Positions 17,371 to 64,000 of a stretch of DNA of 64,000 nt are shown here, piece by piece. Position 1 is the stretch's first letter; each line of letters starts with the position of its first letter. The DNA is from Malus domestica (lineage: Eukaryota; Streptophyta; Magnoliopsida; Rosales; Rosaceae): contig NC_091675.1 in NCBI RefSeq assembly GCF_042453785.1, positions 1,500,501 to 1,564,500 on the forward strand. Reading direction: 5' to 3'. Made by a program: the position numbers and the translations under genes. Under the pieces are notes generated by a model. That model ran no database searches, had not been told where the DNA came from, and saw only the letters and a list, made by a program, of their open reading frames with translations.

Positions 17371-18986
17371 TCAATTCTTGGGGGGAAATGCCTTCTTCTT
17401 GAAACTGGTAGGCGCTGCCCTAATCCAAGCTTTGCCGTCAATGGAGTCCTTAGTTATGAAAGGTGCAGCTTCTTCACTCGTTAGGACTCGTGACCAGTCA
17501 ACTCTTTTTGATGTCACAGCTCCAGGTCCAGAACATTTGTATTGTCCATAGTAAACAGAACTGCATATACATCAATTTAAACAAAATTAGAAATTGAGCC
17601 AACGTAAATAAAAAAATAAAATAAAAAGATTACAAAATTAAGGACAAAAAAAGAAGCCATTATTAGCAATGGAAAATAGTCATCATATAAACGGAGGAGC
17701 ACCTGGTCATAATTGTGGAATACTAATAAAATTTATCGTTAGAGTTACCTTAATTGGTCGGCTGAGTTACCCCAGTCGTTCCAACCCTGAGGGAGTATGA
17801 TATTAGGCATGTAAGTGAAGGCAAAAATGACTCTGGAATAGACACCCCATGGTCTTCCTAACACTGCCGTTTTGACGCCAGTGATCTTGCACCCAAAGAA
17901 AAAGAACCCAGTGTCCTCTGAAGGTGACATCCTCCTTTGGGCTGTTATGGCTCCTCCTCCATTCGAAATCGAATGCAAATGGCACTTCTGGAAAATTTAA
18001 TTAATTTATTCATCAATTGAAGCCCAAACATATGAATTAGCACCATACTAATTAATCCTCGAGAAATCATTGAGCTGATGGTCCTAACATCACATGCATG
18101 TTACTAGCTACTAATCCGCATATTATAATATATAGATAGATCAAGTGTATCATGAACATATTGATAACAACATGAACATATTGATAACAACACGCGTGAT
18201 AGTGTGATGGTTTAGACCGAAACAATAAAATCAATAATTTTCAAAAACCAAAACGCTAACAATATTGTTTTCTTCTATAAGTTACCTCAAAAAAAGAAGC
18301 ACCATTTCCACATATAAAATCAGTGGCTCCTTCAATATAACAGTTGTTGTAGTAGTGCCTGCCGGTATCGTCAAGTAGGGTATCTTGGTAAGACAAAATT
18401 CTGCACACATAAAATGCTGCTCTATCCCCTGAGGCCCTCAGCGCCACTGCTTTACCACCGCTTCCATAAGTGTTCTGCAATGAATTCAGCAATTAAAATT
18501 ATTAGATTCAAGCGTATATATGCATGGACATGCATGTGAAACGTACTATATACGTACACACACACACACACATATAAATATATGTACCTGAATTGTGAGG
18601 TAGCGCCCTATAAAATCCGAAGCCAACACAGAGAAAGTTGCAGATTCAAATATATCTCCGCTGTCGTTCCACGTAATTATAGTGTCAACTGCCTTTGTGC
18701 CACTTATTGTAATAAAGGGTTTGTCCGCGGGGACAGTAATTTTTTCTTTGTAGACTCCAGGCTTAACCCTAATGAACACAAGATCGACGTTATTCGACGG
18801 CACCGCGTCGATGGCATCTTGTATTTTCTCGTAATCGCCTTTCCCAGACTGATCCACGGTTATTAGAATTGCCGTGGACCCCTGAGTTGTTTCTGCTTCT
18901 GCTTGAGAAAGCGCCAGAAGAACATACAATGAAGCCATGACAAAGAAGCACTTGGTCTTCATAGAAGTACCACAAACAGCCACCAT
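17371..18986 (-). CDS. Pectinesterase (pectin methylesterase), PE11-like
   Basis: Secreted enzyme removing methyl esters from homogalacturonan in the wall, releasing methanol and making pectate. Exons 18588-18986, 18286-18474, 17749-17987 and 17371-17560 sum to 1017 nt, 338 residues, which is the type-II form lacking an N-terminal inhibitor domain. The ATG at 18986 (cgaccATGgtg) gives a hydrophobic leader around residues 10-32 ([19 protein letters not shown]). Family motifs: GVYKEK near 88, QDTL with the acid/base Asp, DFICGNG with the nucleophile Asp, and LGRPW with the active-site Arg. The usual DFIFGN is DFIC here, a conservative change beside the catalytic Asp. The C-terminus ends normally with an IDGKAWI block. 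It has a tandem partner 970 bp upstream on the same strand. Confidence 0.93.
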
Positions 18987-19957
18987 GGTCGAAATTGGAA
19001 GTTTTTGGCTCAAATACTCTTAAAAATTCAATGAATATATGCGTAAGTTGAAATGAATATTGAAGAACGTGGATTGAAATTTGAATGTTGAAGAAGATGG
19101 ATGGACGTTGATTGTTATATAGTAGTTACAGCTGGATCCCAAGGGAGGTGGGGCCGTTTTCTTGATAATAAAGAGTTTGAAGAATTATTTTACGTAAACG
19201 TGTGGAGGATAATTGTAAGGAATTTCCAGGGTAGCCGGCGGCAGGATATTTGTACCTTGAGACTGAAGAAACAAATGTTTGAAATTAAAATGAGTGATAT
19301 GAGGTGGTTAAGATCAGATTATGTTGATATGAAATGTTGTAATGGCGGCCTGATTGGATAATTGATGTTACACAAGTCTTGAAGTTGCTTAAGAAGTAGA
19401 ATTAGTATGTCATTTGTGTGATATTAGGGTTTATCACCCATTACGTTATTTGAGCAGGCAGCTCAGTTGCTTGGATTTGGAGTTTTGACATTGGCTGCTA
19501 CCGGTGTAAAATAGATCTGGAAGCCTGGAACTGGTCCAAATTATTCTCACAATGAATTAAAAAAGGCGATCGCCATAGGTCTAAGGCCATTGCACTACAT
19601 AAAATAAAATAAAATGAGCAAAAATTTGGAAGGCGTATCAATAACTAATGAAGTTATTAGCTACTAATAAAAGGCCTTTACGCACTTTATTTTGTGCATT
19701 GCGTGCAACTAATATTGATTATTGTCAGTTTTTCTCGTGGCACATGTGGAAACATAAACACTGTAAGGAGTAATTGTTTGGATTCATACATGTCCTATGC
19801 ATGCATTTAAAAAGTTACATTTGTCACTAAATTTAAGTCTCAACTATAAGAGTCTACAACTTGATTACTAAAGGAAAGTAAACTAATAGATTTACAAAGT
19901 TTTCTACTATACTCGCCCCCATCCAAGTTTTGCCCTAAAATTTTACCCCTCATAAAA
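18987..19957 (-). promoter_or_regulatory. Region between the tandem pectinesterases
   Basis: Contains the promoter of the downstream esterase and the 3' flank of the upstream one. A minus-strand TATA-like ACTATATAAC lies at about 19113-19122, some 130 nt before the ATG at 18986. No mobile element recognised. Confidence 0.45.
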
Positions 19958-21844
19958 TTATGACAAGTGGATTAAGGGAAGCAAAACAAGAGACAATCCC
20001 CAAAGGCCTGGATGGGCAGCACCTTTTTCACAACCACTCCATTGCACATCAGCCCACCCCTCGATGGAGGCTCCTCCTACATTAGGAACTCCATGTTGCC
20101 CTACTCCTGCATTGTTTCTAACTCCTCCTCCTCCACCATTGGGAATGGGTGCTGCATGTTTCCATCCTCCTCCATTGTTTCTTTCTCGTTCTCCTCCTAC
20201 AGGAGGAGGTGGTCCATGTTGCCCTCCTCCCCCAACCGGAGTAGGAGGTCCTTGTTGCCATCCTCCTGCAAATGGAGGGGGAGCTCCATATTGTCCTCCT
20301 CCCGCAACAGAAGGAGGAGGTCCATGTTGCCATCCTACTGCAAAGGGAGCGGGAGCTCCATATTGTCCTCCTTCTCTAGTTGCGGGAGGAGGAGGTCCAT
20401 GTTGCCCTCCACCTCCAATAGGAGTAGGATATCCTTGTTTCCCTCCATCTCCAATAGGAGTAGGAGGTCCTTGTTGCCGTCCTCCATTGTTTCCTTCTCC
20501 ATCTCTTCCGACACGAGGGGGAGCTCCATATTTCCAACCTCCTCCATCTGAACCTTGCCAGCTTCCAATTCCAAAGCCCCTAACCTTGTTCATGAAGGAT
20601 GTAAATTCTTTTGGCGTAACGTTGTGTTCCCACGCAACTCTTTCTGCTGTCACGGCTCCAGCTCCAATACATTTGTACTCACCATAGTAAACCTTACTAC
20701 ATACCCATCAAGTTGAAACCAAATTGAAAGAGATTAAAACAAATAAATAAATAGAGTAATGAAATTAAATAATTAACCTAAAAAAGGTCGTACCCAGTGC
20801 ACAAGGCTCCCGCTTTACGCGGGGTCTGGGAGAGGTGAATGTCGGCTAGCCTTACCCCCATTTATGGAGAGGCTGCTCCCAAAAATTAAATAATTAACCT
20901 AATTATTAAAAATTAACATGAGAAAATGTAAACCTTAAGTAGTCAGTTGATCGGCCCCAACTGTCCCAACCTTGTGGGAGAATCGCATTTGACATCTTAG
21001 TATAGGCAAAGATGACTGTCGAATAGGGACCCCATGGCCTTCCTAATACTGCCCTTCCCACGCCAGTGATTTCGCCTCCCAAGAACAAAAACCCTGCATC
21101 TTGTGATGGTGAATCCCTTTTTTGGGCTGTTATAGCTCCGTTTTGTTCCGAAAGCGAATGCATGTGACAATTCTACTAGTGTGGGTATGTTAGTTTTGCA
21201 TGTCCAAATAATTTTATCGTAAATATATATAGCTGTCACATACATACCTCAAATAAAGAAGAAGCGCTTCCAAATATAAAATCAGTGTCTCCTTCAATGT
21301 AGCAGTCTTTGTAGTATTGCTTGCCTATATCGGCAAATAAGGCATCTTGATGAGACATAATGCTGCAACCATAGAATGCTACTCTGTCTCCCGAGACTCT
21401 CAGTGCAACTGCTTTGCCACCGGTCCCATACGTATTCTGAACTGTGAAGTTGCGCCCTACGAAATCAGATGCCCATAAAGTGAAGACTGCGGTTTCATTT
21501 ATCTCGCCGGATTCCTTCCACGTTATCACGGTGTCGCTTGCATAACTTGTCGATCCACTTATTGTTATAAACGGTTTGTCTGAAGGTACATTAATCTTTT
21601 CGTAGTAGATGCCAGGTTTAACCCAAATATACACAGGCAGGGCATTGTTGGACGGTACAGCATCGATGGCGTCTTGTATTTTAGTGTAATCGTTGCTGCC
21701 AGACTGGTCGACGGTTATAAAAACCGTTGGGGGCGCCGGGGGTATGTTCACTTGAGCTGCTTGGGAGAGCGCATGCCTAAAAGTCGGAAGTAATAAGGCC
21801 ATGGAGAAGAAGCACTTGATCATACGGGTCAGAAATTTAGCCAT
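19958..21844 (-). CDS. Pectinesterase with Gly/Pro-rich repeat tail and hydrophobic C-terminus
   Basis: Pectin methylesterase paralogue of the neighbouring gene with an unusual tail. Exons 21248-21844, 20934-21172 and 19958-20696 sum to 1575 nt, 524 residues, against about 340 for its neighbour. A leader (CFFSMALLLPTF) starts it. Catalytic motifs are intact: GIYYEK, QDAL, DFIFGSA, LGRPWGPYS. The normal C-terminal block is replaced after about residue 325 by roughly nine imperfect 12-13-residue units of the form G-[GW]-x-[QYH]-G-[APY]-P-x-P. A Asn/Gly-rich linker, a Cys (WSGCEKGAAH) and a final hydrophobic LWGLSLVLLPLIHLS follow. This order of small residues, spacer and hydrophobic end resembles a GPI-anchor signal, which is inference. 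The first intron of the neighbour is absent here, while the second carries an Au SINE. The third exon is one open frame of 739 nt. Confidence 0.88.
20050..20560 (-). repeat. Tandem repeat encoding Gly/Pro/Gln units
   Basis: Coding tandem array of about 36-51-bp units inside the last exon of the second pectinesterase. On the plus strand it is visible as recurring 'ggaggaggtccatgttgcc' and 'gggagctccatattgtcc' blocks. Units vary mostly in silent and conservative positions. Because of the periodic composition, long open frames also appear on the opposite strand; they are shadows. Confidence 0.88.
20786..20882 (-). mobile_element. 5'-truncated Au SINE in pectinesterase intron
   Basis: Minus-orientation Au SINE 3' portion (gggtacgacc end, T-tail) between exons 2 and 3 of the longer pectinesterase. 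The 19-bp repeat aaattaaataattaaccta flanks it at 20762-20780 and 20883-20901. Confidence 0.93.
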
Positions 21845-30028: not shown

Positions 30029-31611
30029 ATGCAATTCAGAAACGTGTTTCACGAGCTATTCGAGATGAGAGATGACAAGGGGAAGAAATCAAGAAGAGGA
30101 GGGGAAGAGAGGAAGCACACGCGCCGCCGTGCGAAATCTCACATTGCCCCGGAACATACATTGTCATCACCTGCATCAGTTGAGCAAACCAAGTGGGCAA
30201 ACTTGCCCCCGGAGTTGCTTCTCGACATAATCCAACGCGTTGAAGCGAGTGAGACTTCCTGGCCTGCTCGGAGGGATGTGATTGCTTGCGCTTCGGTTTG
30301 CAAGTCGTGGAGGGAGATTACGAAAGGGATCGTCAAGACTCCAGAGCAATGTGGCTGGCTTACCTTCCCTGTCTCACTCAAGCAGGTATTTTTCGATAAA
30401 ACGAGGTTTCTTTAGGTTATTCTTACTGAATGTGACTTTCACTTGCCTGCTGAAGATTTTTACTTTCCTCATTACTTGCATATATTTACTAGCCGGGACC
30501 AAGAGATCATCCGATCCAGTGCTTTATTAAGAGGGAAAGAGAAACTTCAACATTCCTACTGTATCTTGGTCTTAGCCCTGGTAAGCATGCTTCTCCCGTT
30601 ATTATTCACGAATCATGACTTGGGTGCGTGTTAGATATCGGTGTTCAAATTCTTTTGGAGTGGATTTTTAAGCCAGTGACTAATTCTTTCTTATAAATCT
30701 ATAGCTCTGTGTGGGGACGTGAGTAAGTTATTGCTGGCAGCAAGGAAGGTCAGACGGGCAACAAGCACACATTTTGTTGTGTCCTTGGCCGCAGATGAAT
30801 TCTCTCGAGCAAGCATTACTTATGTTGGACAATTGAGGCAAGCTTTACTATGCATCTTTATCGTTGCCACGATTTTTTTCAATTTGTGCTCATTACAACC
30901 ACGATTCATTCTTTTTTGTGTGCAATTCATTGGCAAATGAACAGGTCTAATTTTCTGGGATCCAAGTTTACCGTTTATGACAGTCAGCCTCCACAGGACT
31001 CAGCAATCCAAACAAATTATCAGTCACATCGAAAAATCAATCCAAAGAAGGTATCTCCAAGGATGACTGCTGGTAGCTATAGTGTTGCTACTGTATCGTA
31101 CGAGCTCAATATCCTCCGAACAAGGGGACCAAGGAGAATGCAATGCATCATGCAATCAATCCCCATGTCAGCAGTTCAAGAAGGGGGCGTTGCTCCTACT
31201 CCAACAGAGTTAGCGACCTGCCTTCCTCCAAAATGCTGTGCATTGCAAGTTTCAAAGGGATCGAAGCAGCTTGCCAACTTTTGCTCTAGTGACCCCACAA
31301 CGGATTTGGAACAAGGCACAAAAGATCCGGTCATTTTGAAAAACAAAGCTCCTAGATGGCACGAGCAGCTGCAGTGTTGGTGTCTGAATTTTAAGGGACG
31401 CGTTACAGTGGCCTCTGTGAAGAATTTCCAGCTGGTGGCCGCTGCAGAGCCTTGCCATAATGTTCCATTGGCTGAAGAAGAGAAAGTAATACTGCAATTC
31501 GGGAAGATTGGTAAAGACATTTTCACAATGGACTATCGCTACCCTCTCTCTGCTTTCCAAGCCTTCGCAATTTGCTTGAGCAGCTTTGACACGAAACCAG
31601 CCTGCGAATGA
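30029..31611 (+). CDS. Tubby-like F-box protein
   Basis: F-box plus tubby domain protein. The F-box recruits SKP1 for SCF ubiquitin ligases, and the tubby barrel binds phosphoinositides at the plasma membrane. Exons 30029-30385, 30493-30580, 30705-30837 and 30945-31611 sum to 1245 nt, 414 residues. The F-box spans about 56-100 ([17 protein letters not shown]). The tubby domain runs from about 113 to the end, with [27 protein letters not shown], the signature [15 protein letters not shown] and the terminal [16 protein letters not shown]. The third intron begins GCAAGC instead of GT and ends in AG (30838-30944). It is required to keep the invariant LRSNFLG junction, so this is a GC-AG intron. 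The start ATG has a basic N-terminal region downstream, usual for the family. The nearest Arabidopsis type cannot be fixed by eye; TLP2 is suggested by remembered gene order. Confidence 0.94.
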
Positions 31612-52830: not shown

Positions 52831-53883
52831 TTAATCTTCAGCTGCTGCCGCTCCCTCCCCACCTTCTCCCTCCACATTGTCAAAAGACAGACCTGTAGCA
52901 ATGGCATTAGTAGTAGCAGTGACGTCACCCTGCTTCTTAATGGTGTTTTTGTTGTTGTGCATCCAAACCCTAAGCACCTGCCTCTTCACTCCCACCTCCG
53001 CACAAAACCTCTCCACCTCCTCCTCATCCTGCTTCTGAATTCTCCACCCAACCCTCTCCGCAAACTCCATCATTCTCTCCTTCTGCTCCACCGTAAACTT
53101 TGTTCGAAACCGCTTCTTCGACAAAGCAAACGGCGGCACCGCTCCACCCTCAAAAGCATTCAGATCCTCGCTCGAACTCTCCGTCCCTCCTCCGCCGCTA
53201 CCGAACGCCATGTTCACCGGCTGAACAATCGGAGGCATCGAGTACTTCTGATGGTGGTGATGATGATGGTGCAAAGCCGAGGAAGGCGAAGGCAGCGGCG
53301 GCGGAAGTTGAAGTGGAGTCAGCATTATGCTCGACCTTCTCGACCCGGGACTGAAAGCCGCCGTCTCCCCGTCCACCTCCTTGCGGTGGAAGTTGCGGTG
53401 GCAGTCGCACGCGGCGCATTTCAAAGCCTCCAGCGTCCCCTCTTCGCCGCTCGGCATGAACTCTCCGCAGCCGTCGAACACATTACCACCAATGTTCGCC
53501 GCGTGGTTCTTGAGGCACTCTCTGTACCTAACAACTTTTCCCAAAGACTTGGGCCCACCACCACCACCACTGCCACTGAGTCTGGCTCCGTGTGGGGCCA
53601 CCGGGGTGCCGGATAGGGCACGATCCGGATCTGGGTCGCGGATCAACGGCTGCAACGGGAGAGCAGCTGGGTTGTGGTTGTCTAGGGTTTGGTGCTGGTG
53701 ATGAGGAGCAGTGGCAGAACCGTAACTTCCAGTGCCATTGTGAATCCCAAGTCTTCTCTTTTGCTGGTGATCTGCTGCTGGTGCTGCTGCCGCTGACGAC
53801 GGCGATGACTCTTTGGCACTTAAATGAGCATAGCTTAGCGAGCCTGACGTCCTCATTTCGTTATCTTGAGCTCTAAAATCCAT
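52831..53883 (-). CDS. Zinc-finger homeodomain (ZF-HD/ZHD) transcription factor
   Basis: Intronless 350-residue plant ZF-HD protein, a nuclear DNA-binding factor that dimerises through its zinc finger. Residues 118-168 carry the Cys/His dimerisation finger: VRYRECLKNHAANIGGN, DGCGEFMPSG, and LKCAACDCHRNFHRKE. The homeodomain covers about 256-316: KRFRTKFTVEQKERMMEFAE, VGWRIQK and QVLRVWMHNNKNT. A His run and Pro-rich linker join the two, and the N-terminus has a QKRR patch. The C-terminus is acidic. Intronless structure and WMHNNK are typical of the family. The ATG at 53883 has a fitting context (aatccATGg on its strand). Three GA tracts lie 390-740 bp upstream. ZHD5/ZHD6-like is a guess from gene order. 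Confidence 0.96.
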   Translation of the reverse strand: MDFRAQDNEMRTSGSLSYAHLSAKESSPSSAAAAPAADHQQKRRLGIHNGTGSYGSATAPHHQHQTLDNHNPAALPLQPLIRDPDPDRALSGTPVAPHGARLSGSGGGGGPKSLGKVVRYRECLKNHAANIGGNVFDGCGEFMPSGEEGTLEALKCAACDCHRNFHRKEVDGETAAFSPGSRRSSIMLTPLQLPPPLPSPSSALHHHHHHHQKYSMPPIVQPVNMAFGSGGGGTESSSEDLNAFEGGAVPPFALSKKRFRTKFTVEQKERMMEFAERVGWRIQKQDEEEVERFCAEVGVKRQVLRVWMHNNKNTIKKQGDVTATTNAIATGLSFDNVEGEGGEGAAAAED

Positions 53884-54265
53884 GGATTTTTTGATATTCT
53901 GTCACAAAAGCACACAATCTTCAATTATTTAATACCAAAAGCTGTCACAAAAGCATCATCGTCTCGTTGATCTCAAACCAGTATTTGTGTACTTTCTTGG
54001 GGTTCCAAGTCCTTCTGTTAATTAATCTCTGCTGTTCGAAAATAAACAAAAACAAAAACACAAAAAGGAAGAAAAATGTTTCAAATATATGACAAAATTA
54101 GAAGCTATATATATAGCTATGTAGCTGAAACTCTAAATGTATATCCATCGTGTTCCTAGAATGTATATTTCTCGTCTCCAACTTAGACTAAATATTAGGG
54201 TGCTAATCCCACCAAAACCTGGCCATGTCGTAATTTTCAACAGTTCTTGCCAAAAACACAGCTTT

Positions 54266-60686: not shown

Positions 60687-62630
60687 TCACAGAAAAGATT
60701 GCAACGGGGGACGAATTGAAGCATTTGATGAGAACGAAAGAAAGATCTCTTCTCTCTCTTCACCCACCACTACTTTTCCCCACCCTTCCCCTCCTCCTCT
60801 CTCGCCACCTCTCCCCTCACTCTCACCAACTTCAGCCCCCAAACTTGAGACAGAGCCACCGTAATCCCCAAACCTCACCTCCATCAAAACTCCCATTTTC
60901 CCGCCAACCAGCTTATCTTTAGCTGCCCATCTCTGTATTTTACCCGACGTCGTTTTAGGCACACACCCACTTCTCACCAGAACCACCGTCCCAACTTCCA
61001 CTCCCTCTTCCATAACCACACCGTTTCTCACTCCGTCACATATTTTCCTCAAAACTCCAATGTTTTTCTCCATCCTCTGCGTCTCCGCAACCACCACAAC
61101 GGTGTTCGAAACCTCAAACGCCGCCAAACACCCACCTCTCAGAAATCCCGGGTTGCTGTTATACGCCACCGTCTCTACGTAATGAGGGTGGATTTCCATC
61201 CCCACGTCGTCGTTTGGGAGTCTGATCACGTCTACGCATCGGCCCATCACGAAAAGATACCGATCTTCTCCTTTCACGACACCCCTATCGCCAGTTCGAA
61301 GAAATGGCCGACTCAACTTGTTCTTAAGTCTTCCGTAATAAACTTCACGAGTTAAATTTGGGTGGGCTAAGTAACCAGACGCATTGCTCGGAGACGAAAC
61401 CCAAATCTCTCCTTCGATCCCATCCTCGACTGCCTCGTGTGTCTCTTCGTTTACTACCACAATGTTCATGTCCTCCAACTGGTCGTCATTTTCGTTGAGC
61501 CTTGCGCTCGGCAGGAGCTTGTTGTGGGATGGCAATGGCGTGTCTGATCGCCACGCAGTTGAAACAAACGTGCAATTCTCTGCCAAGCCATATGATGGAG
61601 AAATTGATGACGGGTTTAATCCATAAGGCTTAAACACATCGACAAATTGCTCGACCGCGTCGCGGTAAATAGGCTCGTTGATAATGATAAGATTTTTCAT
61701 ACTCCATAGATTTATAGGTGAAGTTCCTTTGTCAACCCCTCCGCGTTTGACAACGAGCGGCAATGTGAACGACGGAACTGGAGTGCAAGTGGCGTTGAAG
61801 TTCGAAATAAGCTCGAGCCAAAGCCGTGGCCTGTTAACAAATGCGCCGGGCGATGTCAAGACACATGTGGCTCCGGACACAATTGTTAGCAACAGAAACA
61901 TTAGGCCGCAATCGTGGTACTGCGGCAGCCAGGACACGATCACGCTGTTCGGGTGAAGATCATAGGCCTTTCTCGCTGTCCTAACGTTATGTGCAGCTGA
62001 TCCTGCCGTGACAAGCACCGGCTTTGGGATCCCAGTTGCACCTGAAGTGTATTGAACCAAATACAAGTCCTCTGCTCTGCAGCCATTGTATGGTGAATGT
62101 TGTAACGTTGTATCTTTAGTTTTGATGTCGTCTATGGCGATCCATCGAAGATTTTTCAATCTTTGGACAAGATCTTTATCGGAGGATGGCAAAGATATGT
62201 AATGCTGAATTCTTGTGATGTAAGTAGAATGAGCTAGGGCAGCTTTAGGCTTTGTTTGGGAGAGGGCTCTTATAAGGTGGTGGAAGTTCTGGTTAGTGAA
62301 AGAAGGGTCGGGCGGGGAAACAGGCACGCTCAAAAGGCCGGCTCGTTGGCACCCGAAAATGGTCTCAACGAGCTCGAGGCCTGGCGAGCATAGGATGACA
62401 ACGGCGTCACCTCTTTGGAGTGGGATGAGCAGTTGAGAAGCAATGCATTGCACTGAGTCATTCATCTGGCCATATGTTAGGGTTGAAGTGGCCTCATTGG
62501 CTGAGCCATCTTCAACCCAAACGAAGGCCGGCTTGGACCGGAAGGCAGGGAGGCTAGCCCATACCGGAAAGTAGAGATCCACCACAGGCTGGTCAGGATA
62601 GGAAGGGTCATAATTCTCATAGTTCATCAT
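60687..62630 (-). CDS. Fatty acyl-AMP ligase-like adenylate-forming enzyme
   Basis: Adenylate-forming (ANL) enzyme of the fatty acyl-AMP ligase (FAAL) type, which activates a carboxylic acid as an acyl adenylate, often for transfer to a carrier protein. One exon, 647 residues, ATG at 62630. The A3 loop LYLVQYTSGATGIPKP spans 189-204, where the usual PKG is PKP. A4 is WLPQYHDCGLMF, typical of FAALs. A5 is SPSYGLAENCTFV, A7/A8 is FLRTGDRG with YLFVMGRCVDVI, and A10 is PKTTSGKIQRW with the catalytic Lys near 564. The last ~50 residues are a Gly/Glu-rich low-complexity tail ending RPPLQSFL, not a carrier domain. Plants have larger proteins that begin with such a domain and continue with carrier and other modules (from memory). 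This gene could be a stand-alone member or a shortened copy. Confidence 0.85.
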   Translation of the reverse strand: MMNYENYDPSYPDQPVVDLYFPVWASLPAFRSKPAFVWVEDGSANEATSTLTYGQMNDSVQCIASQLLIPLQRGDAVVILCSPGLELVETIFGCQRAGLLSVPVSPPDPSFTNQNFHHLIRALSQTKPKAALAHSTYITRIQHYISLPSSDKDLVQRLKNLRWIAIDDIKTKDTTLQHSPYNGCRAEDLYLVQYTSGATGIPKPVLVTAGSAAHNVRTARKAYDLHPNSVIVSWLPQYHDCGLMFLLLTIVSGATCVLTSPGAFVNRPRLWLELISNFNATCTPVPSFTLPLVVKRGGVDKGTSPINLWSMKNLIIINEPIYRDAVEQFVDVFKPYGLNPSSISPSYGLAENCTFVSTAWRSDTPLPSHNKLLPSARLNENDDQLEDMNIVVVNEETHEAVEDGIEGEIWVSSPSNASGYLAHPNLTREVYYGRLKNKLSRPFLRTGDRGVVKGEDRYLFVMGRCVDVIRLPNDDVGMEIHPHYVETVAYNSNPGFLRGGCLAAFEVSNTVVVVAETQRMEKNIGVLRKICDGVRNGVVMEEGVEVGTVVLVRSGCVPKTTSGKIQRWAAKDKLVGGKMGVLMEVRFGDYGGSVSSLGAEVGESEGRGGERGGGEGWGKVVVGEEREEIFLSFSSNASIRPPLQSFL

Positions 62631-64000
62631 GGTGGTGTGTGCTTGTTTTGTGTTTTTTTTTTTTCAAGTGGCTTATACAATCACTTGAGTGCATTTTATA
62701 GTTTCAAAATAGGCTAAATTGCATTAATAGTCCTCACAATTTAAATGGATTTTCACTTTTAACCATTAATATTTTTGTTGTATTTTCAATTCTGAAGTCT
62801 CATGATATAGCGTGAGAGGTGTCCTACATCTGAGTGAGATGATGTACACAAACACAAACATAAAGAACATTGGACCAAAGTGAAAGTAGAATAAAACTAC
62901 CACAACGAAAACGTAAGAAAAAAAACCACATAAACAAAAGTGAAATTTCGGATTAAATACACGAACGATTAGCTGAACTCTCCCTCCAAAATTGGCATAG
63001 AGATGTAGAGAAAAAGACATATGGCGTTGTCCATAGTGTATGAAACCAGAAAAAGAAAGGAGAGAATAAGAGATATTCGAGGAGAATATCCCACTCACTA
63101 ATCTAACAACTGGAAAAAGAAAGCGTCGCAGATCACCATTGTTGTGTTGATGTCGAAGTTTCATGTTTTCTAGCTGCTGTCTGTGAAGTGTGTGCGCGGT
63201 ATATTTTGCCGTCCTAAATTTTTTGATTGTACGTGGAGAGAATATACGTATATTTGTATGAAACTACCTTTTTGATTTCTTGCGTGACAGGTAAATCCCC
63301 AAAGGATTAGATTTGGAGTGTGGGAGACATAATTAAAAAGCATGGGGAATGGTGAAACATAATGTTTGTTTATTTAAGGTTTGCCGATTACTACAATGAG
63401 GAGGTCTGTTTTATTTTGATCCTATGTTACTTTGTACGTGGAAGGAATGATGTGTCCACTTAGAGCAAGTTCATCCATTTTGGGAGGGTGAGGGTAATGG
63501 TAAAATACTTGAATTGTCCTTATTATTCACTATGAGCAGTAATTATCTTTGTGCAGTTCTATCCGTCTGAATATGGCAAAAATGATTACTATTCACAAAA
63601 ATATTTTTTAGAAATAAATGTGAACTTTGTAGGTTTTTTTTTTTTTTTTGGGGAAAATAAAATGATTGTCTAATTCCAATAAATGATTTCAAATACAAGG
63701 CAAAAACATACCATTACAACAAGCATTATTAATTAAACTTAGGGGATAAAATCAGTGTGGCTCAGTCTGTTTTCCCTTGGAGTGTATGGATCTTCCGTGG
63801 AATGAAAAAGATGGTTGGGTAATTATAAATTTTTTAAAAATGTTTTTGGATTTTTGATCGCTGGATTAGTCCTAGCCATTGATTTCTAAATTTTTTTAAA
63901 TTAGATGAGCCAAATTGTACCACGTGGCACAACAGAAAAATTTTCATTATTTTACCGTTGGCCCACTACCAGCGGGCTCAAGGCCCCGCTATTACGGACC
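62631..64000. other. Upstream flank of the acyl-AMP ligase gene to window end
   Basis: AT-rich DNA. A minus-strand 132-codon open frame at 62766-63164 is hydrophobic and low-complexity and not supported as a gene. No mobile element with defined ends was found. Confidence 0.4.

Follow-up and report, generated by a model that had tools for sequence, protein, structure and literature searches.

A pectinesterase gene of apple with a Gly/Pro repeat tail and a GPI-like C-terminal end

Pectin enzymes with predicted anchors or added regions

The site of pectin de-esterification, at the membrane or far inside the wall, matters for whether walls stiffen or loosen. GPI-anchored pectin methylesterases (PMEs) have been predicted, and according to the available parts of two reviews only the inhibitor PMEI1 has been confirmed as anchored (PMC9412048, PMC10756762), while PME3 (AT3g14310) appears in a list of Arabidopsis GPI proteins (PMC6726743, also available in part). 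Chimeric arabinogalactan proteins (AGPs) with pectate lyase, PMEI or pectin esterase domains have been reported as well (PMC5266747, in the portion accessible to us). The gene analysed here, from apple (Malus domestica), resembles the predicted GPI-anchored Arabidopsis PMEs and PMEIs in that a pectin-modifying protein carries a proposed GPI anchor; it differs from them in having a repeat tail, a feature that goes unmentioned in the accessible portions of the papers concerned (PMC6726743, PMC9412048, PMC10756762). With the chimeric AGPs, as far as the available part of that source describes them (PMC5266747), it shares the joining of a pectin enzyme to a Pro-containing region.

A preliminary description of the locus knew of no described case with this layout. 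Among the papers listed by literature searches, which cover few subscription papers, none combines a PME with such a Gly/Pro repeat tail; the anchoring component of the layout, by contrast, has precedents, since GPI-anchored PMEs were already predicted in print, and it is the repeat layout that is new here. In the available main text of a strawberry PME family paper (PMC6950920) the terms GPI, C-terminal, signal peptide and transmembrane are absent, and PME and pectinesterase are absent from that of a cold-acclimation GPI proteome (PMC5014161), probably the 2016 publication to which a review refers for PMEs. A survey of HRGPs in Populus (PMC5073881) contains neither pectin, nor PME, nor esterase.

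Gene structure and catalytic domain

The gene lies on the minus strand of what we call the window, the whole 64,000-nucleotide stretch of DNA under analysis (C15:1500501-1564500, in a searched genome of 651 Mb and 19 contigs), and consists of three exons separated by GT-AG introns with matching phases. Exon 1 (21248..21844) runs from an ATG at 21844 to a GT donor and encodes a signal-peptide-like start and the first part of the pectinesterase domain; exon 2 (20934..21172), bounded by an AG acceptor and a GT donor, encodes the middle of the domain; and exon 3 (19958..20696, 739 nt), preceded by AG and in phase, encodes the domain end, the repeat tail, the GPI-like end and the stop. The spliced CDS of 1575 nt translates into 524 amino acids plus stop, uninterrupted by stop or frameshift. 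Judged by eye in the translation, the protein has a hydrophobic start, and this N-terminus would direct secretion of the pectinesterase. The earlier claim that the esterase continues in phase into the tail through a 739-nt last exon is thus borne out by the AG/GT sites and the spliced CDS, which agree on fusion, phase and coordinates. Transcripts might exclude the tail through alternative splicing or early polyadenylation, for which the 32 GT and 67 AG dinucleotides of exon 3 provide raw material; against this, a crude scan with few strings, one of them unable to match, met no donor-like string in the exon, and we hold such an exclusion to be very improbable.

The sole Pfam domain in the protein is PF01095 (Pectinesterase, residues 43-303, E 1.4e-61), which scores 208.3 bits and is thus above its gathering score of 27, and the best matches among solved structures are the pectin methylesterases of carrot (1gq8) and tomato (1xg2). 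Aligned to 1gq8, the protein keeps four of the five positions that we take to be catalytic in carrot PME (Gln113, Gln135, Asp136, Asp157 and Arg225): the last four correspond to Gln166, Asp167, Asp188 and Arg244, and Gln113 is replaced by Lys144. Because of this Lys, pectinesterase activity cannot be regarded as assured from the sequence. The position is occupied by Lys or Arg in all four relatives aligned, both tailed and tail-less, and the substitution therefore goes with the paralogue group and not with the tail. While alike in the catalytic domain, the protein departs from plant PMEs not only at this residue but also at its end, where a SWQ block occupies the position of the usual FIDGxxW, no FIDGxxW-type end is present, and a further 198 residues follow the SWQ, all encoded by the last exon. 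That pectinesterases normally stop soon after FIDGxxW, as the preliminary description stated, fits the other PME ends examined, a subset of those that the genome contains.

Repeat tail and C-terminal end

Residues 327-491 constitute the Gly/Pro/Gln repeat tail (20060..20554, minus strand, coordinates derived from the spliced CDS), in which TRF detects a tandem array of 36-nt period with 8.1 copies and 72% matches (20191..20485, minus strand). About nine units of 12-13 residues had been proposed; the array is real, and ten units can be listed in the protein, of which eight have 12 residues and the other two 13 and 14, for which the unit listing suggests a consensus of roughly GG[GW]Q[HYQ]G[PA]P[PTA]Pxx. 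One 12-residue unit, GGWKHAAPIPNG, is diverged and set apart from the others. Searches at the protein and DNA level, which may skip simple repeats, found no relatives of the tail elsewhere in the genome.

Chimeric AGPs are characterised by about 50% or more of Pro+Ala+Ser+Thr, and glycine-rich proteins by Gly-rich repeats with 20-70% Gly. The 165 residues of the repeat part contain 31.5% Gly, 17.6% Pro and 6.7% Gln, with Pro+Ala+Ser+Thr amounting to 29.1%, below the AGP threshold of about 50%. Since this sum is low and Gly dominates, the tail is not AGP-like in composition, in which it differs from the chimeric AGPs, and its Gly content and 12-residue period place it among the glycine-rich proteins by composition, not by homology.

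That this GGA/CCT-rich repeat reads open counts for little on its own: across the array two antisense frames, of 243 and 191 codons, are open too; the two other sense frames have five stops each in the tail part. The longer antisense frame (19956-20687, plus strand) lies over the repeats and is probably a by-product of composition. A comparison of eight of the ten repeat units, from which the 13- and 14-residue units were left out, gave no evidence of selection on the repeat peptide, with a pS of 0.35 and a pN of 0.24 in the coding frame versus 0.37 and 0.24 in one antisense frame, so that the coding frame does not stand out; another antisense frame yielded 0.21 and 0.29, and stops made the remaining frames incomputable.

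After the repeats the protein continues with GWADVQWSGCEKGAAHP and closes with a 16-residue hydrophobic end, GLWGLSLVLLPLIHLS, before which stands a single Cys. This part can be compared with a paralogue, L015 (C15:909842-911254), which lies on the same contig about 0.6 Mb away. L015 is 60.7% identical to the window gene in the domain (305 positions) and encodes 404 amino acids. Only 80 of these follow its own SWQ, ending in GVGWDPVEWSGAEGMSISPAEDMSSCESPRSPGIFLFLLFGLFV, and there is no repeat array; it does have, like the window protein, a GW..V.WSG.E motif and a hydrophobic end. In the window protein the motif reads GWADVQWSGCE (residues 492-502; 20027..20059, minus strand), and its alignment score against L015 was reached by 1-2 of 2000 shuffles in three sub-regions, the common stretch being 11 residues only. 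The whole tails align weakly, their score being reached by 47 of 2000 shuffles. Between the first halves of the two tails the similarity is not significant (its score is reached by 165 of 2000 shuffles when SWQ is included and by 200 of 2000 when it is left out), and we make no claim of homology there.

We applied an omega rule of our own (a small omega triplet, a short spacer and an uncharged hydrophobic end) to the window protein and L015 only, without controls. Together with hydropathy, it delineates a GPI-like signal at 19961..20023 (minus strand) that consists of a candidate omega site, Gly504-Ala-Ala, a spacer of 5 and a 15-residue hydrophobic end free of charges, reaching residue 524; in L015 it returns three candidate omega sites. 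Taken alone, the hydrophobic end of the window gene could be chance: of the 723 ORFs in the window with 40 codons or more, 38 have an equally strong end, the cut-off being a mean hydropathy of 2.0 or higher over 14 residues. Since L015 ends similarly, a chance origin is less likely. The same cut-off is reached by three of 34 distinct motif-picked ends, namely those of L015, of the window gene and of an 18-residue frame in L001 that we judge to be a chance motif hit; the 34 derive from the window and 51 loci, which cover part of the 138 domain matches in the genome, and also include a few hits that are due to chance or to a pseudogene, L050.

We favour, with moderate confidence, a reading of the sequence in which the gene encodes a secreted, probably GPI-anchored pectin methylesterase from a small paralogue group, with an older anchor-like end and a repeat spacer added here. 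A GPI anchor would replace the hydrophobic end close to Gly504 (or Ser499), and the tail of about 165 residues would serve as a flexible spacer through which an enzyme held at the plasma membrane extends into the neighbouring wall and de-esterifies pectin at the cell surface. The surface-held enzyme proposed in the preliminary description gains some support from a related protein with the motif, the hydrophobic end and candidate omega sites, although the anchoring itself is something that we infer from such features. One could also suppose that the tail is translated and the hydrophobic end is no GPI signal, in which case the protein would be soluble and secreted, and held in the wall by its Gly/Pro/Gln/Tyr tail as glycine-rich proteins are. 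The glycine-rich composition and the frequency of equally strong hydrophobic ends among arbitrary ORFs are in keeping with such a protein; the retention of motif and hydrophobic end in L015, where the array is lacking, speaks against it, and we find it rather unlikely.

Paralogues and history of the tail

Searching the genome with the catalytic part returned 127 exon-level matches. Domain identity to the window gene is 62.3% (302 positions) for a tandem neighbour at 17371..18986 (minus strand), taken for comparison, 59.8% (306) for the neighbour's copy on C8 and 59.1% (301) for an intronless copy on C13, and L015 and the tandem neighbour are 64.3% identical to each other (300 positions). All three of these genes other than L015 have normal ends soon after the usual block, the neighbour being without a tail. 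The intronless paralogue (L014/L033, C13:4069761-4070681) has an open frame of 399 codons and may be a retrocopy. By reading, an intron after the TVQ block is kept in L015 and the tandem neighbour and absent in the window gene, and L015 lacks the other two introns, so that the two tailed genes differ in the intron kept.

In a FastTree phylogeny, whose rows are query-anchored and some of whose outgroups are partial, L015 and the window gene group together with a local support of 0.868, adjoining the pair of the neighbour and its C8 copy at 0.999. The tailed end was thus likely gained only once; this is not established, because the plain identities give no preference to grouping the window gene with L015. 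As L015 has a similar end without a long tail, the C-terminal end may predate the repeats: the anchor-like end would have arisen in the common ancestor of the two genes, and the 36-nt unit would have multiplied later, in the window gene. On C8 there is a decayed copy of L015 (L050:1863-2330; C8:1174362-1174829) with one TGA and two TAA inside the match, and its DNA can be aligned over much of the L015 tail, though not over most of the hydrophobic stretch. The tail of L015 is therefore older than its C8 duplication, tail DNA being recognisable in the copy. The window gene itself has a further copy on C8, of which only an exon-1 remnant survives (L034:4618-4517), with 62% identity over 34 residues.

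These C8 copies, a remnant and a pseudogene, raise the question of whether the window gene is itself decaying or unexpressed, having lost its FIDGxxW end and run on in frame into a GGA/CCT-rich repeat that gave it a functionless tail. The missing FIDGxxW, the Lys in place of Gln113, the lack of further matches to the tail in the genome searches and the lack of clear selection on the repeat units would all fit such a gene. Its 524 codons, however, are free of stops and frameshifts and its splice sites are intact, and a resemblance of its end to that of a paralogue with only 60.7% identity is unexpected from random read-through, which leads us to consider decay distinctly unlikely. Returning to the GPI-anchored form, we would add a tentative and rather doubtful extension: the number of 12-residue units might determine how far the held pectinesterase reaches into the wall; these units would have multiplied on an anchored form that already existed, and their count may differ among the relatives of apple. 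The two tailed paralogues, with and without the spacer, and the tail-less neighbour would make up a natural set for the roles of anchor and spacer.

The window contains other open reading frames with Pfam matches: a Tubby-family ORF at 30799-31611 on the plus strand (PF01167, E 4.7e-73) and, on the minus strand, a ZF-HD transcription factor ORF at 52831-53901 (PF04770, E 3.3e-31) and an AMP-binding enzyme ORF of 658 amino acids at 60687-62663 (PF00501, E 1.6e-54).
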